The notes under the pieces are model-generated. The model did not search any database. It was not told where the DNA came from and was given only the letters and a program-made list of their open reading frames with translations. From assembly GCF_902497775.2 (NCBI RefSeq), contig NZ_OZ024668.1, positions 3,890,326 to 3,954,325 of the forward strand: a stretch of 64,000 nucleotides of DNA, in the 5' to 3' direction. The translations under genes were made by a program, and so were the position numbers. Source of the stretch: Pseudomonas fluorescens (lineage in GTDB: Bacteria; Pseudomonadota; Gammaproteobacteria; Pseudomonadales; Pseudomonadaceae). Positions 41,133 through 59,600 of the stretch are shown piece by piece. Each line of letters opens with the position of its first letter. Position 1 is the first letter of the stretch.

Positions 41133-41135
41133 CTT

Positions 41136-41252: not shown

Positions 41253-41268
41253 GTATCACCTATAAAAC
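41253..41268. promoter_or_regulatory. operator-like repeat C, GTATCACCTATAAAAC
   Basis: This copy matches 13 of 16 positions of repeat B and ends 19 bases before the start codon of the first gene, where binding would affect transcription start or elongation. An almost identical 16-mer (GTACCACCTATAAAAC) precedes the porin gene. Confidence 0.5.
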
Positions 41269-41287
41269 AGACCAGAGAGCTTCCCCA

Positions 41288-42139
41288 ATGGCTGTGAAAG
41301 AGATGTACGCAATCCCCTCTCAATGGAATACACCGCACTCCAAGGAAGACCTGGAGCCGACCGAAATCGAATTTCGTAACGTCGGTAAATGTTTCCCGGC
41401 CAAGGGCAAGGCCGAGGCGCCCTTTGCCATTCGCGAGGTGAATTTCAAGATCCGCCGCGGCGAGGTGGTGTCGATCATCGGCCCATCCGGTTGCGGCAAA
41501 AGCACCATCCTCAACATGGGCTCGGGCCTCTACCGCCCCAGCGAAGGCGAAGTGTTCGTCGGCGGCGAGGCGGTGGTCGGCCCGGTGCGCAAGGTCGCCT
41601 TCATGTTGCAGAAGGACCTGCTGATGCCCTGGCGCAGCATCCGCCGCAACGTCGAGCTGGGCCTGGAAATCCAGGGCATGCCCGCCGCCAAGCGCCAGCC
41701 GATTGCCGAAGATCTGCTCAATCGCTGCCACCTGCAAGGCTTTGCCGACCACTACCCGTTCCAGCTGTCGGGCGGCATGCGCCAGCGCGCCGCCCTGGCC
41801 CGGACCCTGGCCATCGACCCGCAGGTGCTGTTCCTCGACGAGCCGTTCTCGGCCCTCGATGCGCAGACCAAGATGATCCTGCAACAGGACCTGGCGCGGA
41901 TGCTGTTCGAAGAAAACAAAACCGCGCTGTTCATCACCCACGACCTGGTCGAGGCGATTGCCATGTCCGACCGCCTGCTGGTCATGAGCGCCCGCCCCGG
42001 CACCATCATCGAAGAAATTACTGTCGACCTGCCGTTTCGTGACAACCCGCTGGAGCGCCGCAAGCTGCCGGAAATCGGCCCGCTGGCCGGGCGCCTGATG
42101 GAACTGCTGAAAGTCGGCGAAGACACCGAACTGCATTGA
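41288..42139 (+). CDS. ABC importer ATPase (SsuB/TauB-like)
   Basis: The 283-residue ATPase has Walker A GPSGCGKST (about residue 68), signature LSGGMRQR (about 161), Walker B VLFLDEPFSALD (about 183) and the H-loop THDLVEA, in the nitrate/sulfonate/taurine importer subgroup. It is the first gene of the 17-gene run and lies 39 bases before the substrate-binding gene. Together the three transporter genes should import a small, probably anionic or aromatic, compound. The gene order resembles PA3514-PA3512 of P. aeruginosa. Confidence 0.9.
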   Translation: MAVKEMYAIPSQWNTPHSKEDLEPTEIEFRNVGKCFPAKGKAEAPFAIREVNFKIRRGEVVSIIGPSGCGKSTILNMGSGLYRPSEGEVFVGGEAVVGPVRKVAFMLQKDLLMPWRSIRRNVELGLEIQGMPAAKRQPIAEDLLNRCHLQGFADHYPFQLSGGMRQRAALARTLAIDPQVLFLDEPFSALDAQTKMILQQDLARMLFEENKTALFITHDLVEAIAMSDRLLVMSARPGTIIEEITVDLPFRDNPLERRKLPEIGPLAGRLMELLKVGEDTELH

Positions 42140-42178
42140 TCAACGGCCACCGGCCCATCAACCGATTCAGGAGTACGC

Positions 42179-43177
42179 ATGTTCAAGTCCCTGCAACGCC
42201 TGGCACAGACTTCGGTCATCGCCCTGGGCCTCGGCCTGGCGCTCACTGCCCAGGCAGAGCCGACCAAGGTCACCTACCTGCTGCCCGCGCCGCCCAACTC
42301 GCCGGCCTTCGCGCCGTGGATCATTGCCAAGGAAAAGGGCTACTACCGTGCCAGGGACCTGGACCTGACCTTCATCGCCGCCAAAGGCGGGGTCGATGTC
42401 GCCAAGCAGATCGGTGCCGGCAACGCCATGCTCGGCGGCGCTATCGGTGACACTCCGATCGTGGTCCGTGCCAACGGTATTCCGGTGCGTGCGGTAGCGG
42501 TGCTCGGTGCCGGCGGGGTGACCATGATCGCCACCAACGCCAACGAGAACATCCAGTCGGTCAAGGACCTCAAGGGCAAGACCCTGACCGTGATGTCCTA
42601 CTCCGACACCACCTACTACGCCCTGCTCGCCTCGCTGCGCAAGGCCGGCCTGAGCAAGACCGACGTCGACATCCAGGCCGCCGGCCCGTCGGGCGTGTGG
42701 CAGCTGTTTTCGGCCAACAAGGCCCAGGCCATGGCCGGGGTGCCGGACTGGGTGGTCAATGCCGAAGAGGCGGGACTGAAGATCAGCCTGATCCCGCAGA
42801 GCCAGATCTTCGAGAGCATGGCCCAGGCGATCCTGGCCTCGGACGACGCAATCAAAAACCAGCCGCAAGTGGTCGGCGGCGTGGTCCAGGCCACCCTGCA
42901 GGGCATGCGCGACATCATCCAGGACCCGAAAGCTGCCGCCGCCACCTTCGCCAAGGCGGTACCGGCCTACGCCGGCAAGGAAGCGGCGCTGGAAAAAACC
43001 TTTCGCCTCTACGTCGAGCACGTCTACGCCAACCAGACCGTGCTCGGGCGCATCGACCCGGCGCGCCTGGACGCGGTGCGCAAGTTCTATGTCAGCGAAG
43101 GCATCGTCGCCAAGGAACCCAAGCTCGACGAGCTCTACAGCAACCAGTTCATCGAAACCACCACGGCCGCGCAATAA
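42179..43177 (+). CDS. ABC importer substrate-binding protein (SsuA/NMT1-like)
   Basis: The 332-residue protein has a signal peptide (cleavage after ALTAQA|EPTKV) and a NMT1/SsuA-type periplasmic-binding fold: APPNSPAFAPWIIAKEKGYYRARDL, KGGVDVAKQIGAGNAMLG and VKDLKGKTLTVMSYSDTTYY. It captures the ligand in the periplasm for the permease encoded next. Relatives bind sulfonates, aromatic acids, pyrimidine precursors or nitriles; the sequence alone does not say which. Confidence 0.88.
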   Translation: MFKSLQRLAQTSVIALGLGLALTAQAEPTKVTYLLPAPPNSPAFAPWIIAKEKGYYRARDLDLTFIAAKGGVDVAKQIGAGNAMLGGAIGDTPIVVRANGIPVRAVAVLGAGGVTMIATNANENIQSVKDLKGKTLTVMSYSDTTYYALLASLRKAGLSKTDVDIQAAGPSGVWQLFSANKAQAMAGVPDWVVNAEEAGLKISLIPQSQIFESMAQAILASDDAIKNQPQVVGGVVQATLQGMRDIIQDPKAAAATFAKAVPAYAGKEAALEKTFRLYVEHVYANQTVLGRIDPARLDAVRKFYVSEGIVAKEPKLDELYSNQFIETTTAAQ

Positions 43178-43206
43178 GCCTGGATGCATAACAAGGTATT
43201 AGCCCG

Positions 43207-43983
43207 ATGAGAAACCTCAACACCTCCGTGCTCGGCAGCGTCGCCCTGCTGATCCTGTTCCTGCTGCTCTGGCAGTGGGGCCCCGGCTTGCTCGGCATGC
43301 CCGAGTTCGTCATGCCGCAACTGAGCCGCGTGGCCCAGGAAAGCGTAGTGATGTGGCAGTCCAGCAGCCTGTTGCAACACACCCTGATCACCGCCTTCGA
43401 GATCATCGTCGGCTTTGGCCTCGGCGCCCTGCTCGGTGTGGCCATCGGCGTGTCGCTGGGCCTGTCGCCGTCGGCCGAAGCCATGCTTTCGCCGTACATC
43501 CTGGCCCTGCAGATCGCTCCGAAAGTCGCCTTCGCGCCACTGTTCGTGATGTGGCTGGGCTACACCATCTACCCGAAGATCCTCATCGCCATCCTCATCG
43601 TGTTCTTCCCGGTGATGATCAACGTGCTCTCGGCGATCCGCACCGTGGACCCGGACATGATCAACCTGGTGCGCACCATGAACGCCAGCCGCTGGCAGAT
43701 CTTCCGCCTGGTGGAGTTCCCCTCGGCCATGGCCGCGCTGTTCTCCGGCCTGCGCATCGCGTCGACCCTGGCGGTGATCGGCGTCACCGTCGGCGAACTG
43801 GTCGGCGGTAACCAGGGCCTGGGCTTCCTCCTGGTGGACGCTGAAGGCCAGGGCAACACCGCCGGAGTCTTCGTCGCCATCGTCATGCTCACCCTGATCG
43901 GCGTGCTGGCCTACGGCGCGGTGGTCTGGGCCGAGAAACGCGTCCTGCACTACCTGCCCAAAGCCATGTTGAGTACCCAATGA
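43207..43983 (+). CDS. ABC importer permease (SsuC/TauC-like)
   Basis: The 258-residue membrane protein has about six helices and the BPD_transp_1 cytoplasmic EAA-type loop (MNASRWQIFRLVEFPSAMAALFSGLRIA, about residues 158-185), which contacts the ATPase. It overlaps the following SDR gene by four bases (ATGA), so uptake and the first catabolic step are translated together. Confidence 0.9.
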   Translation: MRNLNTSVLGSVALLILFLLLWQWGPGLLGMPEFVMPQLSRVAQESVVMWQSSSLLQHTLITAFEIIVGFGLGALLGVAIGVSLGLSPSAEAMLSPYILALQIAPKVAFAPLFVMWLGYTIYPKILIAILIVFFPVMINVLSAIRTVDPDMINLVRTMNASRWQIFRLVEFPSAMAALFSGLRIASTLAVIGVTVGELVGGNQGLGFLLVDAEGQGNTAGVFVAIVMLTLIGVLAYGAVVWAEKRVLHYLPKAMLSTQ

Positions 43984-44747
43984 TGAGCCCATTCAACTCC
44001 ATGCTCGAAGGCCGCCGCGTGCTGGTCACCGGTGGTGCCCGCGGCCTGGGCTATGCCTTCGCCCAGGCCATCGGCCAGGCCGGCGCCCGGGTGGTGATCG
44101 CCGACATTCTCCAGGAGCGCGTGCTGCAGGCGGCTTGCGAGCTGCGTGAACAAGGCTTGCAGGTGACCGGCGTGACCCTCGACCTGGGCAACCCGGAATC
44201 GATCAATGCCTGCGTCGCCGAGGCGGTTGCCGTGCTCGGCGGCCTCGACGGCCTGGTCAACAACGCCTCGATCACCAACTCCGGCGGCAAGACCTGCGAG
44301 CAACTGGACATCGACACCTGGGACCAGGTCATGCAGGTCAACGTGCGCGGCACCTGGCTGATGACCCGCGCCTGCCTGCCAGCCCTGCGCGCCAGCGGCA
44401 AGGGCGCGGTGATCAACCTGGCCTCCGACACCCCGCTGTGGGGCGCGCCGAACCTGCTGGCGTATGTCGCCAGCAAGGGCGCAATCATCGCCATGACCCG
44501 CAGCCTGGCCCGCGAGCTTGGCAGCGACAACATCACCGTCAATGCCATCGCCCCCGGCCTGGTGCTGGTTGAAGCCACCGCCTATGTGCCCGAGGCGCGC
44601 CACCGCCTGTACACCGAACAACGGGCGATTCAGCGCCCGCAACTGCCAGAAGACGTCAGTGGCGCCGTGCTGTTTGCCCTGTCCGACCTGTCGCGTTTCA
44701 TCACTGGACAAACCCTGCCGGTCAACGGCGGGTTCGTCATGCCTTGA
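43980..44747 (+). CDS. short-chain dehydrogenase/reductase with full catalytic set
   Basis: The 255-residue SDR has the cofactor motif TGGARGLGYAFAQ (about residue 18), NNAS, and the catalytic tyrosine and lysine in AYVASKGAI (about residues 159-167). The C-terminal ITGQTLPVNGGFVMP is standard. It is expected to oxidise a hydroxyl group or reduce a ketone in the pathway. A second start three bases later (43983) is equally possible. AGGAG before the next gene follows directly. Confidence 0.88.
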   Translation: MMSPFNSMLEGRRVLVTGGARGLGYAFAQAIGQAGARVVIADILQERVLQAACELREQGLQVTGVTLDLGNPESINACVAEAVAVLGGLDGLVNNASITNSGGKTCEQLDIDTWDQVMQVNVRGTWLMTRACLPALRASGKGAVINLASDTPLWGAPNLLAYVASKGAIIAMTRSLARELGSDNITVNAIAPGLVLVEATAYVPEARHRLYTEQRAIQRPQLPEDVSGAVLFALSDLSRFITGQTLPVNGGFVMP

Positions 44748-44761
44748 GCAAGGAGAAACCC

Positions 44762-45301
44762 ATGACCGACCTATCCGTACAAAACGACGCCCCGAAAACC
44801 TGGGAACAACCCGCAGGCGCGGACCTGGCTGGCTGGATGCAGACCCGCATCGCCCGCTATGAAACCCGCAAGTACGACTGGGACGCGCTGAAGTTCCAGG
44901 CCGACTTCGACCCCAAGTTCCGCCGCGCGCAAATGCGCTACGTCGGCACCGGTGGCACCGGGGTCAACAGCGACATGAACACCATCCCCTCGGAGCACTT
45001 CACCTTCTCGACCATGGTCATCCCGGCCGGCCATGAAGGCCCGCCGCACATCCATACCGACGTCGAGGAGGTGTTCTTCGTATTGCGCGGCAAGCTCAAG
45101 GTGATCATCGAGAAAGATGGCGAGCGCTTCGAAACCGTGCTCACCGACCGCGACCTGATTTCGGTACCGCCGGGCGTGTACCGCGAAGAGATCAACATCG
45201 GCGATGAGGACGCGCTGATGTGCGTGATGCTCGGTGCGAAAAAGCCGGTCACCCCGACCTACCCGCCAGCGCACCCGCTGGCCTCGATCAAGCGCGGTTA
45301 A
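44762..45301 (+). CDS. cupin-domain protein
   Basis: The 179-residue protein has a cupin barrel in its second half: GHEGPPHIHTDVEEVFFVLRGKLKVIIE supplies the metal ligands (His, His, Glu) of motif 1, and SVPPGVYREEINIGDEDAL is motif 2. AGGAGAAACCC precedes the ATG at 44762. It could be a metal-dependent dioxygenase, isomerase or binding protein. Within this cluster a ring-processing or isomerising role is plausible but not shown. Confidence 0.83.
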   Translation: MTDLSVQNDAPKTWEQPAGADLAGWMQTRIARYETRKYDWDALKFQADFDPKFRRAQMRYVGTGGTGVNSDMNTIPSEHFTFSTMVIPAGHEGPPHIHTDVEEVFFVLRGKLKVIIEKDGERFETVLTDRDLISVPPGVYREEINIGDEDALMCVMLGAKKPVTPTYPPAHPLASIKRG

Positions 45302-45305
45302 GCCC

Positions 45306-46175
45306 ATGTTGCACGCCACCGACCACTCGCTCGCCGGCTCTGAGGCCCAGTTGCAGCAACGCTTCCCCCAGCGCCTGATGCAACTGGCAGATGGCGCCCA
45401 GGCGATCCGCGAAGCCGGCCAAGGGCCTGCCATCGTGCTGTTGCATGGCATCGGCTCGGGCGCCGCGTCCTGGCTGCAGGTGGCGCTGCAACTGAGCCAG
45501 CACGCCCGGGTGATTGCCTGGGATGCGCCGGGCTATGGCGACTCCAGCCCGCTGGCCGCCCCTGCGCCGCAGGCGGCGGACTATGCCCGGCGCCTGCTGC
45601 AATTGCTCGACGCGCTGCACATCGACGACTGCCTGCTGGTCGGCCATTCCCTCGGTGCCCTCAGCGCCGCGGCCTTGGCCTACCAGCATCCGCAACGGCT
45701 GCGCCGCCTGGTGTTGATCAGCCCGGCCCGCGGCTATGGCGACCCGGCGCGTGCCGAGCAGGCGCAACAGGTGCGCAGCCAGCGCCTGCACAACCTCGAA
45801 CAACTGGGCATCGCCCAGATGGCCCGCCAGCGCAGCGCGCACATGCTTTCGCCTGCGGCCAACGCCGAGGCCCTGGCCTGGGTGCAATGGAACATGGCGC
45901 GGCTGCAGCCCCAGGGTTATCGCCAGGCCATCGAGCTGCTGTGTGGCGACGACCTGCTGCGCTACGCCGCCCTGACCGTGCCCTGCGAAGTGCATTGCGG
46001 CGGCGCCGACAGCATCACCCGCCCCGAGGACTGCCAGGCACTGGCCAAGGCCCTGGGTGCAGCGTTTGCGTTGATTGCCGGAGCCGGCCATGCCAGCCCG
46101 ATTGAACAACCCGAGGCCGTGGCAAGCCTGCTTGCCCGGGCCCTCGAAGCCTCACTGACAGGTACTGCGCTATGA
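45306..46175 (+). CDS. alpha/beta hydrolase, C-C or ester hydrolase type
   Basis: The 289-residue protein has the oxyanion motif VLLHGIGSGAASW, nucleophile GHSLGA (about residue 115), acid residue in HCGGADSITRP and histidine in GAGHASPIEQP. The size and the presence of an extradiol-type enzyme in the same operon fit a meta-cleavage product hydrolase, although ester or lactone hydrolysis is also possible. It overlaps the IclR gene by four bases (ATGA). Confidence 0.85.
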   Translation: MLHATDHSLAGSEAQLQQRFPQRLMQLADGAQAIREAGQGPAIVLLHGIGSGAASWLQVALQLSQHARVIAWDAPGYGDSSPLAAPAPQAADYARRLLQLLDALHIDDCLLVGHSLGALSAAALAYQHPQRLRRLVLISPARGYGDPARAEQAQQVRSQRLHNLEQLGIAQMARQRSAHMLSPAANAEALAWVQWNMARLQPQGYRQAIELLCGDDLLRYAALTVPCEVHCGGADSITRPEDCQALAKALGAAFALIAGAGHASPIEQPEAVASLLARALEASLTGTAL

Positions 46176-46999
46176 ATGATTCGGATCTGTTGAAAGACAA
46201 CCAGGACAAGTACATCGTCCCCGGCCTTGAGCGCGGCCTGTTGCTGCTCTGTGAATTCAGCCGGCAAAACCGCACCCTCACCGCGCCGGAACTGGCGCGG
46301 CGCCTGGAGCTGCCGCGCTCGACCATCTTCCGCCTGCTGACCACCCTGGAAACCATGGGCTTCGTCACCCGCAGCGGCAATGAATACCGCTTAGGCATGT
46401 CGGTGCTGCGCCTGGGCTTCGAATACCTCGCCTCGCTGGAGCTGACCGAGCTCGGTCAACCGCTGCTGGCACGGCTGTGCGATCACCTCAACTACCCAAG
46501 CAACCTGGTGGTGCGTGACGGTCGCTCGATTGTCTACGTGGCCAAGGTTTCGCCGCCATCGGTGTTCTCCAGCGCGGTCAACGTCGGCACCCGCCTGCCG
46601 GCCCACGCCACGGTACTGGGGCGCATCCTGCTCGAAGACCTGAGCCTGGCCGAGCTGCGCGAGCTGTACCCCGAAGAGCACCTGGAGCAACACTCGCCGT
46701 GCACACCGAAAACCGTGCTGGAGCTGTTCGACCTGGTGCAGAGCGACCGCCAGCGCGGCTATGTCAGCGGCGAAGGTTTCTTCGAGTCGTCGATCTCGAC
46801 CATCGCCGCCCCGGTGCGCGATCACAGTGGCCGGGTGGTCGCCGCCATGGGCGTGACCATTCCCACGGTGCAGGTTGCGCACATCAATTTCGACGGTTTG
46901 CTCGGCCATGTCCGCGGCAGCGCCGACGAGCTGTCGCGCCTGCTCAACTACACCCCGCACGCAGGCAACGGCCGCGTCACCGCGCTGATGAGGGACTGA
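46172..46999 (+). CDS. IclR-family transcriptional regulator
   Basis: The 275-residue regulator has an N-terminal winged helix-turn-helix (about residues 18-80, LTAPELARRLELPRSTIFRLLTTLE) and a C-terminal ligand-binding domain with VYVAKVSPP, GTRLPAHATVLGRILLED and SSISTIAAPVRDHSGRVVAA. IclR proteins bind aromatic acids or their breakdown products and act at short palindromes. Repeated near-palindromes before the transporter operon and before the porin gene are the natural sites for it. It is encoded inside the operon, suggesting self-control. Confidence 0.9.
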   Translation: MNDSDLLKDNQDKYIVPGLERGLLLLCEFSRQNRTLTAPELARRLELPRSTIFRLLTTLETMGFVTRSGNEYRLGMSVLRLGFEYLASLELTELGQPLLARLCDHLNYPSNLVVRDGRSIVYVAKVSPPSVFSSAVNVGTRLPAHATVLGRILLEDLSLAELRELYPEEHLEQHSPCTPKTVLELFDLVQSDRQRGYVSGEGFFESSISTIAAPVRDHSGRVVAAMGVTIPTVQVAHINFDGLLGHVRGSADELSRLLNYTPHAGNGRVTALMRD

Positions 47000-47000
47000 C

Positions 47001-47801
47001 ATGAGCAACCTCTATCAACTGCACGGGCGCACCGCCATCGTCACCGGCGGCTCCTCCGGGATTGGCCTGGCCTGCGTCGAGCAACTGCTCGAAGCCGGCG
47101 CCGCGGTGGCCTTCTGCGGTCGCGATCAACAGCGGTTGGACAGCGCCGAAGCACGCTTGCGTGAACGCTTCCCCGAGGCCCGTTTGCTGGCCCAGGTCTG
47201 CGACGTGCTCGATGCCCAATCGGTGCAGGCCTTCGCCGCCGCCAGCCTGGCCGCGCTGGGCCCGGCCCGGGTGTTGATCAACAACGCCGGCCAAGGCCGG
47301 GTGTCGACCTTTGCCGACACCAGCGACGAGGCCTGGAGCGAAGAGCTGCAGCTGAAGTTCTTCTCGGTGATCTACCCGGTGCGCGCCTTCCTGGCGCAGT
47401 TGCAGGGCCAGGCCGGCGCCTCGATCGTCTGCGTCAACTCGCTGCTGGCCAGCCAGCCGGAGCCGCACATGGTCGCCACCTCGGCGGCACGTGCGGGCCT
47501 GAAGAACCTGGTGCGCTCGATGGCTACCGAGTTCGCCGAACAGGGCATCCGGGTCAACGGCATCCTCATTGGCCTGGTCGAGTCCGGCCAGTGGCGCCGG
47601 CGCTTCGAGGCCCGCGAAGAGCGCGATCTGGACTGGGCGCAATGGACCGCGCAACTGGCGCAACGCAAACACATTCCCCTGGGTCGCCTGGGCCTGCCCA
47701 AAGAAGCAGCCCAAGCGATCCTGTTCCTGGCTTCGCCCCTGTCGGCTTACACCACTGGCAGCCATATCGATGTTTCTGGAGGCCTGTCCCGCCATGCGTA
47801 A
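47001..47801 (+). CDS. SDR-family protein with changed catalytic motif
   Basis: The 266-residue SDR keeps the cofactor motif TGGSSGIGLACVEQL (about residues 11-25), NNAGQG and the serine in CVNSLLAS. However, at the usual YxxxK the sequence reads HMVATSAARAG, giving Thr and Arg in place of Tyr and Lys. It may therefore use another proton relay, have a different reaction, or bind cofactor only. It begins one base after the IclR stop and overlaps the decarboxylase gene by eight bases. Confidence 0.85.
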   Translation: MSNLYQLHGRTAIVTGGSSGIGLACVEQLLEAGAAVAFCGRDQQRLDSAEARLRERFPEARLLAQVCDVLDAQSVQAFAAASLAALGPARVLINNAGQGRVSTFADTSDEAWSEELQLKFFSVIYPVRAFLAQLQGQAGASIVCVNSLLASQPEPHMVATSAARAGLKNLVRSMATEFAEQGIRVNGILIGLVESGQWRRRFEAREERDLDWAQWTAQLAQRKHIPLGRLGLPKEAAQAILFLASPLSAYTTGSHIDVSGGLSRHA

Positions 47802-49476: not shown

Positions 49477-49486
49477 GGACTTGCGC

Positions 49487-50290
49487 ATGCTCAATATCAC
49501 CATGATCGGCTGCGGCGCCATTGGCGTCGCGGTGCTGGAACTGCTGGAGAACGATGCGCAACTGCGGGTCGAGCATGTGATTGCCTCGGCCGGTTCCGAA
49601 GCCCTGGTGCAACAGCGCCTGGCCAGCTTCAAGCGCCCGCCGCAGGTGCTCACCGCCCTGCCCGCCGACGCCCGCCCGGACTTGCTGGTGGAATGCGCCG
49701 GACACAAGGCGATCGAGGAACACGTGCTGCCGGCACTTGAGCGCGGCATCGCCTGCCTGATCGTCTCGGTCGGCGCCTTGTCCGAGCTGGGCCTGGTCGA
49801 GCGCCTGGAGGCGGCCGCCGCCCGGGGCAACACCCGTATCGAGCTGCTGCCCGGCGCCATCGGCGGTATCGATGCGCTGTCGGCGGCCAAGGTCGGCGGC
49901 CTCGACTCGGTCGACTACATCGGACGCAAACCGGCCAGGGCCTGGAAGAACACCCCGGCCGAGCAAGTCTGCGACCTGGATGCCATCGACCAGGCCACGG
50001 TGATCTTCGAAGGCAGCGCCCGCGAAGCGGCGCGCCTGTACCCGAAGAACGCCAACGTCGCCGCCACCTTGTCGTTGGCAGGACTGGGCCTGGACCGCAC
50101 GCGGGTGACGCTGATCGCCGACCCGCTCAGCGAAGAGAACGTCCACCACTTCGAAGCCCGTGGTGCCTTCGGCGGTTTCGAGATGAGCCTGCGCGGCAAG
50201 CCGCTGCAAGCCAACCCGAAGACCTCGGCGCTGACCGTCTACAGCGTGGTCCGCGCCCTGGGTAACCACGCCCATGCCATATCCATCTAG
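49487..50290 (+). CDS. nadX: aspartate-dehydrogenase-like enzyme (NadX type)
   Basis: The 267-residue protein has an NAD-binding motif MIGCGAIGVAVLELLEN and the L-aspartate dehydrogenase family core: LVECAGHKAIEEHVLPAL, LLPGAIGGIDALSAAKVGG and PKNANVAATLSLAGLGLD. The homologue in P. aeruginosa (PA3505, in a similar cluster) has been shown to oxidise L-aspartate, as I recall. Here it may act on aspartate or on a related amino acid released from the substrate. The role within the pathway is inference. It begins ten bases after the decarboxylase stop. Confidence 0.85.
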   Translation: MLNITMIGCGAIGVAVLELLENDAQLRVEHVIASAGSEALVQQRLASFKRPPQVLTALPADARPDLLVECAGHKAIEEHVLPALERGIACLIVSVGALSELGLVERLEAAAARGNTRIELLPGAIGGIDALSAAKVGGLDSVDYIGRKPARAWKNTPAEQVCDLDAIDQATVIFEGSAREAARLYPKNANVAATLSLAGLGLDRTRVTLIADPLSEENVHHFEARGAFGGFEMSLRGKPLQANPKTSALTVYSVVRALGNHAHAISI

Positions 50291-50300
50291 GGGAACGTCG

Positions 50301-51791: not shown

Positions 51792-52753
51792 GCGTATTGG
51801 GCATCGATGAAGTCACCTACGGCGTCGAAGACCTCGACACCTGCGTGCGCTTCTTCAGCGACTGGGGCCTGAACAAGGTCAGCGAACAGGCCGACGAGGT
51901 GATCTTCGAAACCCTCAATGGCTGCCGGGTGGTGCTGGCCGACATCCACAAGGCCGGCCTGCCAGCGGCCATCGAAGCGGGCTCGACGGTACGCGAAGTG
52001 GTCTGGGGCGTTGAAAGCGCAGCGGACCTGGCCCTGTACAGCCAGCGCATCGCCAACGACCCGGGCTTTGTCGAGGGCAACGGGCGCATCGGCTGCACCG
52101 ATCCCAACGGCCTGGCGATCCGCCTGCAGGTGACCCGCAAGCGCGCGCTGGATATCGAGTGCAGCGGCCACAACACCTGGCAGACCAAGGGCCGGATCAA
52201 CAAACCGGCGCCGGTCTACGAGCGCGCCACGCCGATCGAAGTCGGCCACGTGGTGTTCTTCGTCAAGGATGTGAATGCCTGCGAAGCCTTCTACCACGAA
52301 CGCTTCGGCTTCCAGGCCTCGGACCGCTACCCCAACCGCGGCGCGTTCTTGCGCACCGCCGAGGAAGGCGGCCACCACGACCTGTTCATGCTCCAGCTGC
52401 CGGCACCCCGCGCCGGTCTGAATCACGTGGCCTTCACCGTGCGCGACCTGCACGAAGTGTTCGGCGGCGGCATGCACATCTCGCGCAGCGGCTGGGCCAC
52501 CGAAATCGGCCCGGGCCGCCACCCGGTGTCGTCGGCGTTCTTCTGGTACTTCAAGAACCCGGCCGGCGCCCTGGTCGAGTACTACGCCGACGAAGACCAA
52601 CTGACCGGCGAATGGCAGCCCCGGGAGTTCGAGCCGGGCCCGACGGTGTTTGCCGAGTGGGCGATTGCCGGCGGTATCGATGGCAATACCCGGCGCCAGC
52701 AGCATGTCGAGGCGCCGCAAGGCAAGTTCCTTACCGACAAACCCAAACCCTGA
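51788..52753 (+). CDS. two-domain VOC protein, extradiol-dioxygenase type
   Basis: The 321-residue protein has two vicinal-oxygen-chelate modules. The second carries a 2-His-1-Glu metal set in the expected places: VGHVVFFVKD (His), LNHVAFTVRD (His) and GALVEYYADED (Glu). This is the pattern of type I extradiol ring-cleavage dioxygenases such as dihydroxybiphenyl dioxygenases. With the monooxygenase and Rieske genes after it, ring cleavage of a catechol-like intermediate is the likeliest role. The N-terminal module has lost most metal ligands, as is usual. Confidence 0.82.
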   Translation: MSVLGIDEVTYGVEDLDTCVRFFSDWGLNKVSEQADEVIFETLNGCRVVLADIHKAGLPAAIEAGSTVREVVWGVESAADLALYSQRIANDPGFVEGNGRIGCTDPNGLAIRLQVTRKRALDIECSGHNTWQTKGRINKPAPVYERATPIEVGHVVFFVKDVNACEAFYHERFGFQASDRYPNRGAFLRTAEEGGHHDLFMLQLPAPRAGLNHVAFTVRDLHEVFGGGMHISRSGWATEIGPGRHPVSSAFFWYFKNPAGALVEYYADEDQLTGEWQPREFEPGPTVFAEWAIAGGIDGNTRRQQHVEAPQGKFLTDKPKP

Positions 52754-52766
52754 GCAGGAGTTGTCC

Positions 52767-53909
52767 ATGTCTTCGTTGAACATCGCCATCAACGGTGCCG
52801 GCATCGGCGGCCTCACCGCCGCCATCGCCCTGCGCCAGGCCGGTCACCAGGTCACGGTTTTCGAACAGTCCAAAGCCTTCCTGCGGGTCGGTGCCGACAT
52901 CAACCTCACCCCCAACGCCGTGCGCGCCCTCGACGGCCTCGGCGTGGGCCCGGCCGTGCGCATTCCGGCTGCGCGCCCTACCCATCGCATCAGCCGCATG
53001 TGGGACACGGGCGAAGAGACCTCGCGCCTGGAGATGGCCGACGCCGCTGAAAGCCAGTACGGCGCACCGCAGCTGACCATCCACCGCGCCGACCTGCTGA
53101 CGGCCCTGGCCGATGTGTTCCCGTTGCAGAACGTGCAGTTCGCCAAGCGCGCCGAGCAGGTGCTGCAGGATGCCGACGGCGTCGAGCTGCGCTTCAAGGA
53201 CGGCAGCCACCATCGTGCCGACCTGCTGATCGGCGCCGACGGCATTCACTCGGTGGTGCGCAACGCCCTGTTCGGTGAAGAGCAGCCGCGCTTCACCGGG
53301 GTGGTCGCCTACCGCGCCGTGGTCCCGACCGAGCGTGTGGCGCATGTACCCAACATCCAGGCTTTCACCAAATGGTGGGGGCCGAACCCGCAGAGCCAGA
53401 TCGTTACCTTCCCGCTGAACCAGGGCCGCGACATCTTCATCTTCGCCACCACCGCTCAGGACAGCTGGCACCTGGAATCCTGGACCACCGCCGGTGACGC
53501 CGCCGAGTTGCGCAGCCATTACCAGGACTTCCACGCCGACGCCCGGGCGCTGCTCGACGCCTGCGATGAGGTGCTGAAAACCGCACTGTACGAGCGTGAC
53601 CCGCTGCCGTACTGGTCCGAAGGCGCCATCACCCTGCTCGGCGACGCCTGCCACCCGATGATGCCGTTCATGGCCCAGGGTGCTGGCCAGGCCATCGAAG
53701 ATGCCGTGGTGCTGGCTCGTCATCTGCAGGGCATCACCAGCCCGGCGCAGATTGCCAGTGCCCTGCAGGGCTACCAACTGGCGCGCCTGGAGCGCACCAG
53801 CCAGATCCAGATCGGCTCACGCGGCAACCAGTGGCTCAAGGCCGGCGGCAACGCCGACTGGGTCTACGGCTACGACGCCTGGACCGTGCCCACGGCCAGC
53901 GCCGCCTGA
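52767..53909 (+). CDS. FAD-dependent aromatic monooxygenase (salicylate/6-hydroxynicotinate hydroxylase type)
   Basis: The 380-residue flavoprotein has GAGIGGLTAAIALRQAG near the start, the NAD(P)H/FAD motif LLIGADGIHSVVR (about residue 155) and the second FAD motif LLGDACHPMMPFMAQGAGQAIEDA (about residues 290-313). The sequence pattern and C-terminal end (ADWVYGYDAW) resemble 6-hydroxynicotinate 3-monooxygenase NicC, which hydroxylates with loss of a carboxyl group. The exact substrate is open. AGGAG precedes the ATG at 52767. Confidence 0.86.
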   Translation: MSSLNIAINGAGIGGLTAAIALRQAGHQVTVFEQSKAFLRVGADINLTPNAVRALDGLGVGPAVRIPAARPTHRISRMWDTGEETSRLEMADAAESQYGAPQLTIHRADLLTALADVFPLQNVQFAKRAEQVLQDADGVELRFKDGSHHRADLLIGADGIHSVVRNALFGEEQPRFTGVVAYRAVVPTERVAHVPNIQAFTKWWGPNPQSQIVTFPLNQGRDIFIFATTAQDSWHLESWTTAGDAAELRSHYQDFHADARALLDACDEVLKTALYERDPLPYWSEGAITLLGDACHPMMPFMAQGAGQAIEDAVVLARHLQGITSPAQIASALQGYQLARLERTSQIQIGSRGNQWLKAGGNADWVYGYDAWTVPTASAA

Positions 53910-53918
53910 GGCCCGACC

Positions 53919-54236
53919 ATGAACGAGACGATGCAACTGACCGTGGTGCTCAAGCACGACCAGTCAAAGAATCTGGAACAGATCCAGGCGCACATGAAAG
54001 CGATGGGCTGGTGGGACAGCTTCCCCCCCGCCGGCGTTGAGCTGGTGTCCTGGACCGTGGCCATGGGCCTGGGCCAGATCGTCACCCTGCGCCTGCCGCC
54101 GAGCCTGCTCGGCAAGGTCAATGTGGAACTGGAGCGCGCCGCCTGGGGCGTGTTCCGCACCGAATGCTATCCGACGTACGACTTTGTCCCGGTCCGCGAA
54201 ATGATCCGCGAACGGGTCCGCAATGGAGGTCAATGA
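53919..54236 (+). CDS. small unknown protein in the oxygenase operon
   Basis: The 105-residue protein has a ferredoxin-like alpha/beta pattern: TVVLKHDQSKNLEQIQAHM, then TVAMGLGQIVTLRLPPSLL and a C-terminal YDFVPVREMIRERV helix. It has no signal peptide or cysteine pair. It could be a dimeric alpha/beta-barrel type catalytic or accessory protein. Position between the FAD monooxygenase and the Rieske genes makes it part of the same operon. No function is known to me. Confidence 0.8.
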   Translation: MNETMQLTVVLKHDQSKNLEQIQAHMKAMGWWDSFPPAGVELVSWTVAMGLGQIVTLRLPPSLLGKVNVELERAAWGVFRTECYPTYDFVPVREMIRERVRNGGQ

Positions 54237-54237
54237 C

Positions 54238-54465
54238 ATGAGCAACAAGCAACCGTACCTGGAGCCCCATCAGGCGCGCAAACGGCCCAACACTCCGTTC
54301 GAGGAGTTGCTCGGCGATTCTATCGAACGCGCCTACGGCAACGGCGTGACCCAGCTGCCCGAGCTGCTGGCGCACCTGAACCTGGCCGGGCCGCCCTGCC
54401 CCTTGACCGGCGGCGAGTGGACCGAAGACTCCTATAAAACCCTGATGGCGCGGCTGGGCGCATGA
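54238..54465 (+). CDS. recombinase-like helix-turn-helix small protein
   Basis: The 75-residue protein matches the small rHTH group seen next to Rieske oxygenase genes: LEPHQARKRPNTPFEELLGDSIERAYGNG, then GPPCPLTGGEWTEDSYKTLMARLG. The start at 54238 has GGAGGT seven bases upstream. The fold resembles a resolvase-type helix-turn-helix, but a DNA-binding role is doubtful. It is probably an accessory to the oxygenase, which is inference. Confidence 0.75.
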   Translation: MSNKQPYLEPHQARKRPNTPFEELLGDSIERAYGNGVTQLPELLAHLNLAGPPCPLTGGEWTEDSYKTLMARLGA

Positions 54466-54485
54466 CCCGCCGGAGGTAAAACAAG

Positions 54486-55517
54486 ATGAATATGCAATTC
54501 ACCGTCGATCCTGTTGAGAACCACCTGGCCAACGGCCTCAAAGACCTCTGGTTTCCTGTATTGCCCTCGGAGCTGCTTGGCGAGAAGCCGGTGTCGGTGC
54601 GCCGCCTGGGCTACAAGATCGCCCTGTGGCGCGACAACGATGGCAGCGTGCATGCTCTGGAAGACCACTGCCCGCACCGTGGCGCGCCGCTGTCCCAGGG
54701 CCCGGTGCTGGGCGACCGCCTGCAGTGCCCGTACCACGGCGTCGAAGTGCGCTGCGACGGCACCGTGACCAAGGTCCCCGGCAGCCCGGGCTGCAAGCTC
54801 GAAGGCAGCCGCCCGACGCGCATGTTCCACACCCGCGAAGCGGCCGGGGCGATCTTTTTGTTCAACGCCACCGACCCGCACCTGGACACCCCGCCGGAGC
54901 TGGTGCTGCCCGAGCAGCTGACTTCGCCCGAGTGGAGCAGCTTCCTCTGCTACACCGAGTGGCAAGGCGACTACCGTTACGTGCTCGACAACGTCATGGA
55001 CCCGATGCACGGCACCTACCTGCACAAGATGTCGCACTCGATGAGCGAAGGCGAAGCCACCGCCAAATTCGTCACCCGCGACACCGAGCAGGGCTTCTTC
55101 TTCGAGAAGGAAGGCCAGCGCGGGGTCAACTTCGACTGGACCGAATTCCTCGACAACGGCTGCCACTGGCTGCGCCTGGAAATCCCCTACCCGAAGACCG
55201 GCGGCCCGGGCGGCAACTTCACCATCATCGGCAGCTACACCCCGAGCAGCCGCAGCCTGTCGGCGGTGTTCCACTGGCGCGCGCGACCGCTGACCGGCTG
55301 GCAGCGCGACACCTGGCGCTTCCTCTACAAGAACCGCCTGGAAGCCCGCCACTGGGCAGTACTGGAGCAGGACCGGGTACTGCTGGAGTTCATGGAATAC
55401 GACGCCAACCAGCGTGAGAACCTCTATCAGCATGACCTGGGTGTGGTGCGCCTGCGCCGCTACCTCAAGGGCCAGGCCAAGGAGCAACTGGCGCTGATCG
55501 AAGCGAAGCAGCTGTGA
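54486..55517 (+). CDS. Rieske-type aromatic oxygenase, alpha subunit
   Basis: The 343-residue protein has the Rieske cluster ligands in DHCPHRGAPLSQG and LQCPYHGV (about residues 57-83) and the mononuclear-iron site in NVMDPMHGTYLHK (about 171-183). Its length fits the one-component VanA/phthalate-oxygenase group, and the matching reductase gene lies two genes downstream. It could dihydroxylate a ring or demethylate an O- or N-methyl group. It overlaps the RidA gene by one base. Confidence 0.9.
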   Translation: MNMQFTVDPVENHLANGLKDLWFPVLPSELLGEKPVSVRRLGYKIALWRDNDGSVHALEDHCPHRGAPLSQGPVLGDRLQCPYHGVEVRCDGTVTKVPGSPGCKLEGSRPTRMFHTREAAGAIFLFNATDPHLDTPPELVLPEQLTSPEWSSFLCYTEWQGDYRYVLDNVMDPMHGTYLHKMSHSMSEGEATAKFVTRDTEQGFFFEKEGQRGVNFDWTEFLDNGCHWLRLEIPYPKTGGPGGNFTIIGSYTPSSRSLSAVFHWRARPLTGWQRDTWRFLYKNRLEARHWAVLEQDRVLLEFMEYDANQRENLYQHDLGVVRLRRYLKGQAKEQLALIEAKQL

Positions 55518-55954
55518 TGAGCCTGCCAGTGCAACGTATCCAGGCCCAGGCGTTGACCGAACTGGCCACTGCCAGTTGGTCCAACGCCCTGCTGCTTGGC
55601 ACCGAACTGGTAATGTCCGGCATGACCGGCCATCCCGCCACCCGCCAGGCCGCCGAGCGCGGCGCGCCACTGGATGCCTACGCGCAGACCCTGGTAGTGC
55701 TGAACAAAGCCCGGGCCCTGGTTGAAGCGGCAGGCGGGCACATCGGCAATATCTACCGCTTGACGGTGTACCTCACCGACATTGCCGACAAGGACGAAGT
55801 CGGTCGCGCCCGCCGCGACTTCTTCGCAGGTTTCGCCTGCTACCCCACCTCCACTCTGGTTCAAGTGAGCGCCCTGGTGTTCCCGGAACTGGTGGTGGAA
55901 ATCGAAGCCAGCGCCCGGCTCGACATTGACTTGCGCACTGCGCCATTGAGGTGA
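55517..55954 (+). CDS. RidA-family (YjgF/YER057c) protein
   Basis: The 145-residue protein has the RidA fold: SNALLLGTELVMSGMTG, then LVVLNKARALVEAAGGHIGNIYRLTVYL and CYPTSTLVQVSAL. RidA proteins hydrolyse reactive imines and enamines, or act as deaminases in nitrogen-heterocycle pathways. Its presence beside an aspartate-dehydrogenase-like enzyme suggests that an amine or imine arises from the substrate. The ATG at 55517 shares a base with the Rieske gene's stop. Confidence 0.85.
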   Translation: MSLPVQRIQAQALTELATASWSNALLLGTELVMSGMTGHPATRQAAERGAPLDAYAQTLVVLNKARALVEAAGGHIGNIYRLTVYLTDIADKDEVGRARRDFFAGFACYPTSTLVQVSALVFPELVVEIEASARLDIDLRTAPLR

Positions 55955-55957
55955 CCG

Positions 55958-56917
55958 ATGTCCAACTCCTCTACCATCACCGCGCTGGTGCACACCCTGC
56001 GCCACGAAGCCGAAGGCATCATCAGCGTCGAACTGCGCCCCTGGGGCGATACCGTATTCGCGCCGTTCGAAGCCGGCTCGCACATCGACCTGCACCTGCC
56101 CAACGGCCTGGTGCGCAGCTATTCGCTGCTCAACTCGCCGAGCGACCAGGGCCGTTATGTGGTCGGTATCCTGCGCGATCGCAACAGCCGCGGCGGCTCG
56201 GCGTTCGTCCATGAGCAACTGCGCGTTGGCACGCAACTGAGCATCTCGCAGCCACGCAACAACTTCGCCCTCGACCCGCACGCCAGCCACAACGTGCTGG
56301 TGGCCGGCGGCATCGGCATCACGCCGATCTACTGCATGTTTCGCCAGTTGCTGGCCCTGGGCAAATCCGCCGAGTTGATCTACTGCGCCCGCTCGCGCAA
56401 GGAAGCGGCGCTGCTGGAGGCGCTCAGCGGAGTCGATGCCAAGGTGCTGTATCACTTCAACGACGAGAAGAACGCGGTCCCGGACCTGGCGCACTACCTA
56501 GCCGGGCAGCCCAGCGATACGCACTTCTACTGCTGCGGCCCGACGCCGATGCTCGATGCGTTCGAAAGCACCTGCCAAAGCCTGGGCTATCCCCATGCCC
56601 ATATCGAACGCTTCACCGCCGCCGAATTGCCGCCTTCGCAAGATGCCCAGGACAGCTACAGCGTCGAGCTGAAAAAGTCCGGCAAGACGCTGAACGTAGA
56701 GCCCGGTTTGAACCTGCTCGATGTGCTGCTCGAAGCTGGCTGCGATATCGAATATAGCTGCCGCGAGGGCGTGTGCGGCTCGTGCGAGACCCGGGTGCTG
56801 GAGGGTGATATCGACCACCGCGATGGCGTACTGACCAAGGCCGAACGGGCGGCGAACGCATCGATGATGGTCTGTGTGTCGGGCTGCAAGAGCCGGCGCA
56901 TGGTGCTGGACCTGTAA
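55958..56917 (+). CDS. phthalate-dioxygenase-type reductase (PDR/VanB family)
   Basis: The 319-residue electron-transfer protein has a flavin-binding barrel (about residues 1-105, VRSYSLLNSP), an NAD domain with VLVAGGIGITPIYCMFRQL, and a C-terminal plant-type 2Fe-2S domain with CREGVCGSC and a distant MMVCVSGC. It passes electrons from NAD(P)H to the Rieske oxygenase two genes upstream. It is the last gene of the main run; a good terminator follows after 21 bases. Confidence 0.9.
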   Translation: MSNSSTITALVHTLRHEAEGIISVELRPWGDTVFAPFEAGSHIDLHLPNGLVRSYSLLNSPSDQGRYVVGILRDRNSRGGSAFVHEQLRVGTQLSISQPRNNFALDPHASHNVLVAGGIGITPIYCMFRQLLALGKSAELIYCARSRKEAALLEALSGVDAKVLYHFNDEKNAVPDLAHYLAGQPSDTHFYCCGPTPMLDAFESTCQSLGYPHAHIERFTAAELPPSQDAQDSYSVELKKSGKTLNVEPGLNLLDVLLEAGCDIEYSCREGVCGSCETRVLEGDIDHRDGVLTKAERAANASMMVCVSGCKSRRMVLDL

Positions 56918-56938
56918 CTGTTGCAACACGCGCAATTG

Positions 56939-56967
56939 GCCGGCACCGGGTGTGCCGGCTTTTTTTT
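56939..56967 (+). terminator. rho-independent terminator of the catabolic run
   Basis: The stem GCCGGCAC / GTGCCGGC is followed by eight T residues, 21 bases after the reductase stop codon. Confidence 0.93.
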
Positions 56968-57055
56968 GCTCCGCTGCCGGGCCTCATCGCAGGTCAAGTC
57001 GGACCGCCGCACCGCCGCTCTCACAGGTCCGGCGGCGGCAAAACAGTCGATTACT

Positions 57056-57071
57056 TATTCATTGATAAAAC
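57056..57071. promoter_or_regulatory. operator-like repeat D, TATTCATTGATAAAAC
   Basis: This copy matches 12 of 16 positions of repeat B upstream of the transporter genes and lies about 335 bases before the porin start. Confidence 0.35.
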
Positions 57072-57175
57072 AATCAACGCACTGTCAACGCGCGCTGTGC
57101 AGTTAAACCGCACTGCCATTGCCCACTGCTGTTACTTAAATCCCGGCCTGTTCCACCCACGGCACAACTTCATGT

Positions 57176-57191
57176 GTTTCAGATATAAATA
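57176..57191. promoter_or_regulatory. operator-like repeat E, GTTTCAGATATAAATA
   Basis: This copy matches 13 of 16 positions of repeat B. The left half GTTTCA is perfect. Confidence 0.4.
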
Positions 57192-57284
57192 ATTGTTTTG
57201 CATGATATTTATCTGACAACAAACCGTTTATCCGCACTGGCACAGTTCCTGCTTTTTCCTCTCGAGTTCAAATATAAAAACAAC

Positions 57285-57300
57285 GTACCACCTATAAAAC
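57285..57300. promoter_or_regulatory. operator-like repeat F, GTACCACCTATAAAAC
   Basis: This copy differs in only one base from repeat C before the first transporter gene (GTATCACCTATAAAAC), and the A after it is also shared. It lies about 107 bases before the porin start. Confidence 0.5.
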
Positions 57301-57407
57301 AATAACAAACCCACCGATGCGCCACCGCTGACTTTCGCTTCACGCCTTGTTCAAGGCGGCGGACAGCTGTTGCCCACAGAAACTGCTCAACCTTGCGGGG
57401 CATTGAT

Positions 57408-58637
57408 ATGAACAAATACGTGATAAGCCTTGGCCTGATCCTCGGCAGCGCCACAAGCTTCGCTTCCGAGCCCGGCCCTGCGGCACCGGACCAGACGCCA
57501 GCGGTGAAAAAAACCTTCCCGCACATTGCCTGGCGCAGTGACGACGGCCAGAGTTCGCTGGATATCGGCGGCGCACTGCGGGTCAACTACCGCGATGAAC
57601 ACTGGGATACTACCGAGAATAACGGCCGCTTCCTGTTCGATACCTTCCGCCTGGATGTCCAGGCCACCCATAAGCAGCTGTTCAGCGACATCGGCTATTG
57701 GTTCCAGGACGACGGCAAGCGCTCGATCGACCGTGGTTATGTCGGCTATCGCTTCAATGCCAATTCCAACGTGCAACTGGGCGCGCCGTTCAAACCCTTT
57801 GGTCTTGAACCCTACCCGCAGTTTGGCTGGAGCTACCACATCCCGTTTTTCATGGGCTATGGCGTCAGCGCCGGCACGGGCCTGAAATACAGCTACAAGG
57901 ACAAGGACTGGGACCTGCAACTGGGTTACTTCCCGCGCATGCTGCCCAGCGGCATTCGCTACTCGCCGGAAGTCGGCCGTTATAGCGATCTCGACGATAA
58001 CGCCGTGGCCTTCACCCAGTCGCGCCAGGACAACGAGAAGCGCAACCAGGTCAACGCCCGGGTAGCGCGCACGTTTACCGGTGACGGCTGGAAGACTGAA
58101 ATAGGCGCCTCGCTGGCGGCGGCCGAGCTGTACAACGCCACCACCCGTGACGAAGGCGACTACTGGGCAGGCGGCGTGCATGCGATCGTCAACGCCGGCA
58201 ACTGGACTGTCACCAGTCAGGCGATTCGTTACGAGTACGATCCAAAGAACCCCGACGGCGTCAGCAACGACTCGGTACTGATGGGCGGCAACGGCCTGAC
58301 CCCGGCCTACCTGATCGCCTCCAAGGCGACCATCGGCTCGATCAACGTCGGCTACGACATCTTCACCCCGGGCCTTGGTCAGTTGAAAAAGATCAAGGTG
58401 TACAACGACTACAGCCGCATGATGAAAGACAAAAGCGGCTGGGATGACTCGCAGATGTTTACCGTGGGCGCGCAGTTCCTGGCCATGCCGATCATGGCCT
58501 GGGTCGACTTTACCTGGGCAAAGAACGCCAACCCCTTCGGCGGCGCCGAGAACGGCACAGGCTGGACCAACACCAATTCGGTCGGCAGCAACGACTGGTA
58601 CTACCGGACCAACATCAACATCGGCTACTACTTCTGA
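57408..58637 (+). CDS. outer-membrane porin associated with the catabolic cluster
   Basis: The 409-residue protein has a signal peptide (MNKYVISLGLILGSATSFA) and alternating beta-strand character throughout. It ends in NINIGYYF with the terminal phenylalanine used for outer-membrane insertion. Strands such as SLDIGGALRVNYRDE and FLFDTFRLDVQATHKQLF resemble the OprO/OprP-like barrel group rather than OprD. It probably lets the pathway's substrate across the outer membrane, as its leader carries the same repeats as the importer operon. It has its own promoter region and terminator. Confidence 0.82.
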   Translation: MNKYVISLGLILGSATSFASEPGPAAPDQTPAVKKTFPHIAWRSDDGQSSLDIGGALRVNYRDEHWDTTENNGRFLFDTFRLDVQATHKQLFSDIGYWFQDDGKRSIDRGYVGYRFNANSNVQLGAPFKPFGLEPYPQFGWSYHIPFFMGYGVSAGTGLKYSYKDKDWDLQLGYFPRMLPSGIRYSPEVGRYSDLDDNAVAFTQSRQDNEKRNQVNARVARTFTGDGWKTEIGASLAAAELYNATTRDEGDYWAGGVHAIVNAGNWTVTSQAIRYEYDPKNPDGVSNDSVLMGGNGLTPAYLIASKATIGSINVGYDIFTPGLGQLKKIKVYNDYSRMMKDKSGWDDSQMFTVGAQFLAMPIMAWVDFTWAKNANPFGGAENGTGWTNTNSVGSNDWYYRTNINIGYYF

Positions 58638-58640
58638 GGT

Positions 58641-58671
58641 CAAACCGCCCGGCGTGCTGCCGGGCGGTTTG
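58641..58671. terminator. bidirectional terminator between porin and EamA genes
   Basis: Perfect 13-base arms (CAAACCGCCCGGC and its complement) flank a five-base loop between the two convergent genes. The A and T runs at the ends are short. Confidence 0.85.
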
Positions 58672-58676
58672 TACAG

Positions 58677-59567: not shown

Positions 59568-59600
59568 GAATGCCACCTGTATTCGGGCAGATAAGCCGAA

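Follow-up and report, generated by a model that had tools for sequence, protein, structure and literature searches.

Which compound is degraded by the long, tightly packed run of catabolic genes that Pseudomonas fluorescens carries on contig NZ_OZ024668.1? The run occupies positions 41288-56917 of the window analyzed here, a stretch of 64,000 nucleotides (nt) covering positions 3,890,326 to 3,954,325 of the forward strand, and the host genome consists of a single contig of 5,966,768 bases. An earlier note on this DNA had read the genes as a pathway for a nitrogen-containing aromatic compound that proceeds by Rieske-type hydroxylation and extradiol cleavage, a reading that our analysis supports. 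Judging from the gene content, gene order, conservation, intact active sites and partner genes that we observe, we propose that the operon probably takes up and degrades kynurenate (4-hydroxyquinoline-2-carboxylate), perhaps together with quinaldate.

Layout and conservation of the cluster

Eighteen genes lie head to tail on the + strand, beginning with the ATPase of an ATP-binding cassette (ABC) importer and ending with the reductase of a Rieske oxygenase, and the 17 gaps between them range from -5 to +39 nt. The packing and shared strand are thus as the earlier note had described for a run of 17 genes, whereas the count rises to 18 and the porin stands apart. A small gene at 54238-54465 had been missed previously; it encodes 75 amino acids, or 80 with a start at 54223. 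The gene for an outer-membrane porin-like protein (57408-58637, +) starts 490 nt 3' of the reductase gene, and a terminator-like hairpin at 56938-56960 (+; nine pairs, seven of them G-C, followed by TTTTTTT) marks a probable operon end. Given this gap and hairpin, the porin is probably made from a separate transcript, outside the operon, and we set its membership aside. Terminator-like sites overall show no excess (17 found versus 14.0 expected, standard deviation 3.4), and a weaker + strand site lies within the gene of the thiamine diphosphate (ThDP) enzyme at 49356-49372. A simple promoter scan returned two sites against 2.6 expected, both on the - strand and none on the + strand, and internal promoters are possible. 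Rfam gave no match across 40000-60000.

Families were assigned with NCBIfam and Pfam, and the matches agree with the list of protein families drawn up in the earlier note. Gene content was compared across 80 loci, the best 80 of at least 497 relatives found by scanning genome contigs with a four-row alignment of the VOC extradiol dioxygenase. The aldehyde dehydrogenase and the small protein of 54238-54465 are each present in 79 of these loci, and a second short-chain dehydrogenase/reductase (SDR2), the ThDP enzyme, the aspartate dehydrogenase, the Rieske oxygenase and its reductase in 78 each, followed by the IclR regulator (77), SDR1 (76), the hydrolase (75) and the cupin (73). These counts apply within the stretches examined, and many gaps arise from loci cut off at stretch ends; when the cupin gaps were checked, a cupin was present in all four genomes examined, that of Delftia acidovorans lying some 10 kb upstream of VOC. 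Other genes are exchangeable. Importer genes of the present type occur in 38 to 41 of the 80 loci, all but two in a Pseudomonas-type group (the ATPase in 38, all in that group), and porin homologues in 38, again all in that group. The importer and porin that the earlier note had assigned to the system are therefore present, although both can be exchanged.

In Pseudomonas, Comamonadaceae, Burkholderiaceae, Klebsiella and Acinetobacter alike, the core genes remain clustered. The VanB-type reductase gives way to a ferredoxin plus a ferredoxin reductase-like protein in Klebsiella, Acinetobacter baumannii and Caballeronia NK8, and in Streptomyces chartreusis, where the VOC protein is only 29% identical, the core is rearranged. 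The gene order that had been expected to recur across genomes does so in large part, along with the gene set. It is extremely improbable, in our view, that the run brings together several unrelated functions and forms no single pathway: the flavin adenine dinucleotide (FAD) monooxygenase, the RidA-type protein and a 105-residue protein do come and go between loci, but the core is kept throughout the five groups above and survives rearrangement in the Streptomyces. In Klebsiella aerogenes NCTC10006 the ferredoxin reductase and the aldehyde dehydrogenase are each annotated as two adjacent pieces, which could reflect a broken cluster or errors in the sequence.

The distribution of the cluster is patchy. 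The VOC protein is matched at E <1e-140 in 9 of 398 genomes of a phylum sample and in 4 of 59 genomes of a genus sample, the host included in both. Five further matches in the phylum sample (E 1e-57 to 1e-78, which would bring the positive genomes to 14) were treated as paralogues, because they are weaker and because the four sites that were fetched (L112-L115) show other gene contexts. One of these, L112 (G136:C8:82886-102800), combines a tandem pair of VOC genes with genes for a Rieske protein and for several hydrolases and FAD proteins, and possibly belongs to another aromatic or steroid pathway.

Proposed route for kynurenate

In the kynurenate route, 4,6-dihydroxypicolinate emerges from ring cleavage with a four-carbon 2-oxo acid side chain, which then undergoes reduction, decarboxylation and oxidation by way of formylethyl and carboxyethyl intermediates; we use the enzyme names of this pathway. 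According to a 2024 review, glutamate, alanine and organic acids are the products that certain pseudomonads form from kynurenate (PMC11354673), a table names 7,8-dihydroxykynurenate and 5-(3'-carboxy-3'-oxopropyl)-4,6-dihydroxypicolinate as intermediates (PMC11364965), and the formation of 7,8-dihydroxykynurenic acid appears in a title cited by PMC5610271. For each step of the pathway the core of the cluster offers an enzyme of a suitable family whose catalytic residues are intact, tentatively so for the side-chain reduction, which supports kynurenate as the substrate. For the oxygenases, SDR1, the decarboxylase and the aldehyde dehydrogenase this match is at the level of the family, and we infer the substrate and every reaction, above all the ring opening, from it. 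Residue conservation was judged in alignments of 80 to 89 rows, with metal-ligand and SDR motifs taken from general knowledge of these families; all genes below are on the + strand.

Kynurenate would be brought in by the importer, which consists of an ATPase (41288-42139; PF00005), a substrate-binding protein of the NMT1/SsuA type (42179-43177; PF09084, with the SsuA family below cut-off) and a permease (43207-43983; SaoP/SsuC-like, below cut-off). The Rieske oxygenase (54486-55517; PF00355, PF19112), a proposed kynurenate 7,8-dioxygenase, would then produce the 7,8-cis-dihydrodiol together with its VanB-type reductase (55958-56917; Fer2 and NAD-binding domains). Its Rieske cluster ligands C62, H64, C81 and H84 are present in 86 of 86 rows, as are the mononuclear-iron ligands D172 and H180, and the third iron ligand, H175, is present in 85; the best PDB match is dicamba O-demethylase (E 6e-20). 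Beside the Rieske gene lies the small gene at 54238-54465, whose relatives are annotated as 'recombinase-like helix-turn-helix domain-containing protein', and we suggest that its product may be a part of the oxygenase rather than a DNA-binding protein. The dihydrodiol would be oxidized to 7,8-dihydroxykynurenate by SDR1 (43980-44747), a proposed cis-dihydrodiol dehydrogenase with N121, S149, Y162 and K166 in 83 of 83 rows, whose gene adjoins the Rieske gene in Klebsiella, Acinetobacter and Caballeronia NK8.

The VOC extradiol dioxygenase (51788-52753), a proposed 7,8-dihydroxykynurenate 8,8a-dioxygenase, would open the benzene ring at the position next to the ring fusion, giving 5-(3-carboxy-3-oxopropenyl)-4,6-dihydroxypicolinate. 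Its metal triad of H154, H213 and E264 is complete in 89 of 89 rows; the protein is matched below cut-off by the HpaD and catechol 2,3-dioxygenase models and is 98% identical to relatives in P. wadenswilerensis and P. rubra. The side-chain double bond would next be reduced by SDR2 (47001-47801), a close relative of PDB entries 3lf1/3lf2 over its full length (444 bits). In 85 of 85 rows threonine and arginine replace the catalytic tyrosine and lysine of SDR2, which makes an ordinary alcohol dehydrogenase unlikely and leaves room for double-bond reduction. The ThDP enzyme (47797-49476; NF005470, 867 bits against a cut-off of 495; E53 in 85 of 86 rows, with one gap) would decarboxylate the 2-oxo acid to the 2-formylethyl compound, and the aldehyde dehydrogenase (50301-51791; PF00171; C285, E251, N153 and K176 in 89 of 89 rows) would oxidize this to 5-(2-carboxyethyl)-4,6-dihydroxypicolinate.

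At this point the molecule would comprise two parts, a C5 unit made up of the side chain with C5 and C6, and a C4 unit linked to it that bears both the nitrogen and a carboxylate. We propose that the cupin (44762-45301) cuts the C4-C5 bond of this cyclic 1,3-dicarbonyl with O2 to give N-(2-oxoglutaryl)aminofumarate, and the computed formulas balance up to this compound (C9H9NO8). The cupin has H96, H98, E102 and R141 in 80 of 80 rows, the arginine standing where many cupins hold a further histidine; its predicted structure (pLDDT 63) is too uncertain for a fold search. The alpha/beta hydrolase (45306-46175; S115 in 81 of 81 rows, D235 in 80 and H262 in 80, with one gap) would hydrolyze the amide to 2-oxoglutarate and iminosuccinate (aminofumarate), the latter being reduced to aspartate by the L-aspartate dehydrogenase (49487-50290; NF009827, 452 bits against a curated cut-off of 226; H220 in 84 of 84 rows), here a proposed iminosuccinate reductase. 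Where the RidA-type protein (55514-55954; PF01042) is present, it might instead hydrolyze the imine of iminosuccinate to yield oxaloacetate and ammonia. Such products would fit the reported ones, 2-oxoglutarate being a precursor of glutamate and oxaloacetate leading to pyruvate and alanine. The ring opening is supported by the cupin and hydrolase genes, which belong to the core and mostly lie side by side, by a weak best PDB match of the cupin to the quercetinase QueD (E 2e-5) and by the presence of 3kxp among the PDB matches of the hydrolase. The gene set would be controlled by the IclR-family regulator (46172-46999; PF01614, PF09339), for which the PcaR/PcaU/PobR family is the best match, below cut-off.

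This order departs from that of the earlier note, which had placed hydrolysis before decarboxylation and aldehyde oxidation; most likely the sequence is the reverse, with hydrolysis last. The same note had counted the FAD monooxygenase (52767-53909) as a pathway step, but with 36 of 80 loci holding it and 44 lacking it we no longer regard it as core and treat it as accessory. Its best PDB match is 6-hydroxynicotinate 3-monooxygenase (E 2e-81), an enzyme that decarboxylates during hydroxylation, and it may process the picolinate intermediate by a second route or convert some other compound for entry into the pathway.

A further accessory pair is formed by the 105-residue protein (53919-54236) and the RidA-type protein. 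Each is found in 31 of the 80 loci, and after two loci were dropped (L078, whose VOC gene has no further members of the cluster in the upstream 10 kb, and L085, which ends before the Rieske gene) both are present in 31 of 78, neither in 47, and in no case are they apart, despite the small helix-turn-helix-like gene and the Rieske gene between them. As they are never separated, we consider them one module, which may deal with the imine. The 105-residue protein has no Pfam or NCBIfam match, and a fold search found no decisive relative; its predicted model is ferredoxin-like (pLDDT 80), compatible with small isomerases of aromatic catabolism and equally with unrelated proteins. Among 120 relatives listed of 1021, none has a Pfam domain, and they include one muconolactone isomerase domain protein and one DUF3303 protein.

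Nitrogen, partner genes and competing substrates

Two enzymes of amine or imine chemistry had been offered as evidence for a nitrogen-containing substrate. The aspartate dehydrogenase keeps this role, but RidA, absent from 49 of the 80 loci, does not qualify as the main nitrogen evidence. With RidA and the FAD monooxygenase both accessory, the case for nitrogen rests on the aspartate dehydrogenase and on molybdenum hydroxylases encoded beside the cluster. The presence of the dehydrogenase in nearly every locus is what would be expected if ring opening yields iminosuccinate. It is decidedly improbable that the substrate is a benzenoid compound that lacks a ring nitrogen, with the aspartate dehydrogenase serving another role such as NAD synthesis. 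Such a role would agree with records from A. baumannii and Klebsiella, which give the enzyme the gene ontology term NAD biosynthetic process, and with a published prediction that PA3505 is essential in three of four host-like media (PMC9732424), an observation that kynurenate degradation leaves unexplained and that weighs against it. In the other direction, the dehydrogenase gene occurs in the cluster as regularly as the genes for ring cleavage, and molybdenum hydroxylases accompany the cluster in seven loci.

Molybdenum hydroxylases hydroxylate N-heteroaromatic compounds; one of them, quinaldate 4-oxidoreductase, converts quinaldate to kynurenate. Genes for such enzymes lie downstream of the cluster in 7 of the 80 loci (L056, L058, L060, L064, L065, L067 and L072), equal to 7 of the 41 loci outside the Pseudomonas-type group, and in two of eight cluster loci of the phylum sample, namely L110 (with its extension L116) and L111, two contigs being shared with the 80 loci. 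They fall into two types: type 1 is nearest to 4-hydroxybenzoyl-CoA reductase and xanthine dehydrogenase, and type 2 (L067 and L111) to an aldehyde dehydrogenase large subunit; the PDB relatives of either type include quinoline 2-oxidoreductase. A type 1 copy (at least 73% identity) is present in 7 of 16 genomes, in six of them no more than about 10 kb from the VOC gene and in the seventh on another contig; six of the 16 genomes were chosen because they had a visible type 1 gene, so these figures show the tightness of linkage and not its frequency. Contigs C31 and C23 of genome G505 carry two VOC copies (73% and 64%), each near a molybdenum hydroxylase gene of a different subfamily.

These neighbors also bear on whether a pathway of the same kind might act on another quinoline-type heteroaromatic, such as xanthurenate, a substituted 4-quinolone or, with 5,6-dioxygenation, a 2-oxoquinoline, which we regard as unlikely. 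The enzyme families leave the ring substituents unfixed, and two molybdenum hydroxylase types beside the cluster could serve several heterocycles. The aspartate dehydrogenase, however, would ask for a carboxylate adjacent to the ring nitrogen, a feature that kynurenate and xanthurenate have and 2-oxoquinoline lacks. D. acidovorans is regarded as a classic example of a bacterium with the quinoline route, although our literature search did not document this. In support of kynurenate, strain NBRC 14950 of this species holds the full cluster, including the cupin, and on another contig a tryptophan 2,3-dioxygenase gene preceded, at 48 nt, by the gene of an aromatic amino acid transaminase; an arylformamidase, a kynureninase and a second tryptophan dioxygenase are encoded in the same region within 10 kb, all scoring over their cut-offs. 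In the corresponding D. acidovorans stretch (L099, G095:C3:286000-305900) the tryptophan dioxygenase genes are 8 kb apart, the second lying near those for arylformamidase and kynureninase, and one set might serve kynurenate and the other anthranilate.

The importer raises a different question, as proteins of the NMT1/SsuA type would also suit an aromatic sulfonate that is used as a source of sulfur, with the Rieske enzyme removing the sulfonate. From gene names and order, A1S_0945-0958 and ABUW_2942-2946 of A. baumannii presumably represent this cluster. One study of A. baumannii places genes that resemble the cupin, aspartate dehydrogenase and aldehyde dehydrogenase of this cluster in a sulfur acquisition group (PMC12892962), and PA3510 clusters with msuD and msuE in a study of vreR (PMC7035377); these groupings favor a sulfonate and weigh against kynurenate. 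We nevertheless consider a sulfonate improbable. Other transporter types replace the importer in most loci outside Pseudomonas, no SsuD, MsuD or TauD relative was found among the family matches of the 18 proteins scanned (the porin included, itself free of any Pfam or NCBIfam match), and sulfur acquisition would need no long carbon pathway. The transporters of other cluster versions include major facilitator superfamily proteins that come closest, at scores below cut-off, to the families of aromatic acid/H+ symport or D-galactonate transport, and many Comamonadaceae loci contain genes that by eye resemble periplasmic tricarboxylate-type binding proteins; such variety (ABC, major facilitator and tricarboxylate-type) fits an organic anion. 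By eye, DMT/EamA-type transporter-like genes flank the present cluster on both sides (40112-40996, +; 58677-59576, -) and might mark a site of insertion. Elsewhere in the window, two adjacent co-directional genes resembling acyl-CoA ligases (15159-16892 and 17127-18815, -) are, also by eye, probably an ordinary fadD pair.

Several further observations speak against kynurenate as the substrate. A search of the host genome for tryptophan dioxygenase found none, so that kynurenate would have to come from outside, and in none of the 96 related stretches is there a gene for tryptophan dioxygenase, formamidase or kynureninase, or for a close aromatic transaminase. Linkage to genes of tryptophan breakdown, which these 96 stretches fail to show in any instance, was accordingly dropped as a line of support; such linkage to kynurenine formation is usual for many pathways and is not defining for kynurenate degradation. 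Among 20 cluster-bearing genomes, to which this count is confined, 16 encode tryptophan dioxygenase, but in 14 of them it lies on another contig and in two at least about 1 Mb away. The molybdenum hydroxylases score below every NCBIfam cut-off, so that no family points to their substrate. At the level of single enzymes, the QueD match of the cupin is weak, the best PDB match of the hydrolase is 3-oxoadipate enol-lactonase, and none of the 120 VOC relatives listed, of 2095, bears a name pointing to kynurenate.

Published data add to these points. P. aeruginosa CHA lacking kynureninase accumulates kynurenate to 100 uM (PMC4938989); as PA3498-PA3514 is reportedly absent or very rare outside PAO1 (PMC12771364), CHA may lack the cluster. 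In A. baumannii, aspartate dehydrogenase-, aldehyde dehydrogenase- and ThDP-like genes are tabulated at 2.18 to 2.44 with mucin (PMC5757984), and a ferredoxin, a small protein and an aspartate dehydrogenase are listed with biofilm-only expression at values of 0.75 to 1.13 (PMC3758355).

Comparison with known systems

Taking both sides together, we retain kynurenate as the probable substrate, and we tentatively suggest that the cluster may be the genetic basis of bacterial kynurenate degradation and may encode a new opening of a hydroxypyridine ring by a cupin, a hydrolase and a catabolic aspartate dehydrogenase. The pathway itself is old; the gene assignment and the ring-opening mechanism would be new. 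If the assignment is right, several activities that have had no sequence would gain one, and a family labelled aspartate dehydrogenase, for NAD synthesis, would receive a catabolic role. Kynurenic acid is a tryptophan product that acts on the brain. Bacteria that remove it, including some that live in people, would become directly traceable, and the same cluster in Klebsiella and Acinetobacter would represent a bacterial sink for a neuroactive host metabolite.

The degradation of kynurenate by pseudomonads was reportedly worked out by Taniuchi, Hayaishi and co-workers in 1961-63. Like our proposal, it proceeds through dihydroxylation, extradiol cleavage, side-chain reduction, decarboxylation and aldehyde oxidation, with products toward glutamate and alanine; we found no genes or proteins linked to it, and the ring-opening steps proposed here are new. 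Among the matches listed in a search of open-licence literature, no paper assigned a function to the cluster or genes to kynurenate degradation.

The counterpart in P. aeruginosa PAO1 would be PA3498-PA3514, as suggested in the earlier note and supported by the full-length match of SDR2 to structure entries labelled Q9HYA2. By PAO1 gene numbering, the boundary between PA3504 and PA3503 presumably falls between the aldehyde dehydrogenase and VOC genes, which overlap by 4 nt here. A 2025 paper divides the PAO1 genes into two operons, PA3498-PA3503 and PA3504-PA3514, which it calls uncharacterized and reports to be missing from other isolates or very rare among them (PMC12771364), whereas the genes studied here form one tight run.

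Rieske oxygenases that act on fused N-heterocycles, as we propose for the present one, include 2-oxo-1,2-dihydroquinoline 8-monooxygenase (1z01) and carbazole dioxygenase (1ww9), although both are only weakly similar to the Rieske protein here (E 9e-11 and 1e-9, respectively). For the final steps, the alpha-(N-acetylaminomethylene)succinate hydrolase of vitamin B6 degradation (3kxp) matches our hydrolase at E 2e-11, behind 3-oxoadipate enol-lactonase and others. That enzyme splits an N-acyl enamine after opening of a pyridine ring, much as we suggest for N-(2-oxoglutaryl)aminofumarate, and in vitamin B6 degradation the ring is opened by an FAD enzyme and not by a cupin.

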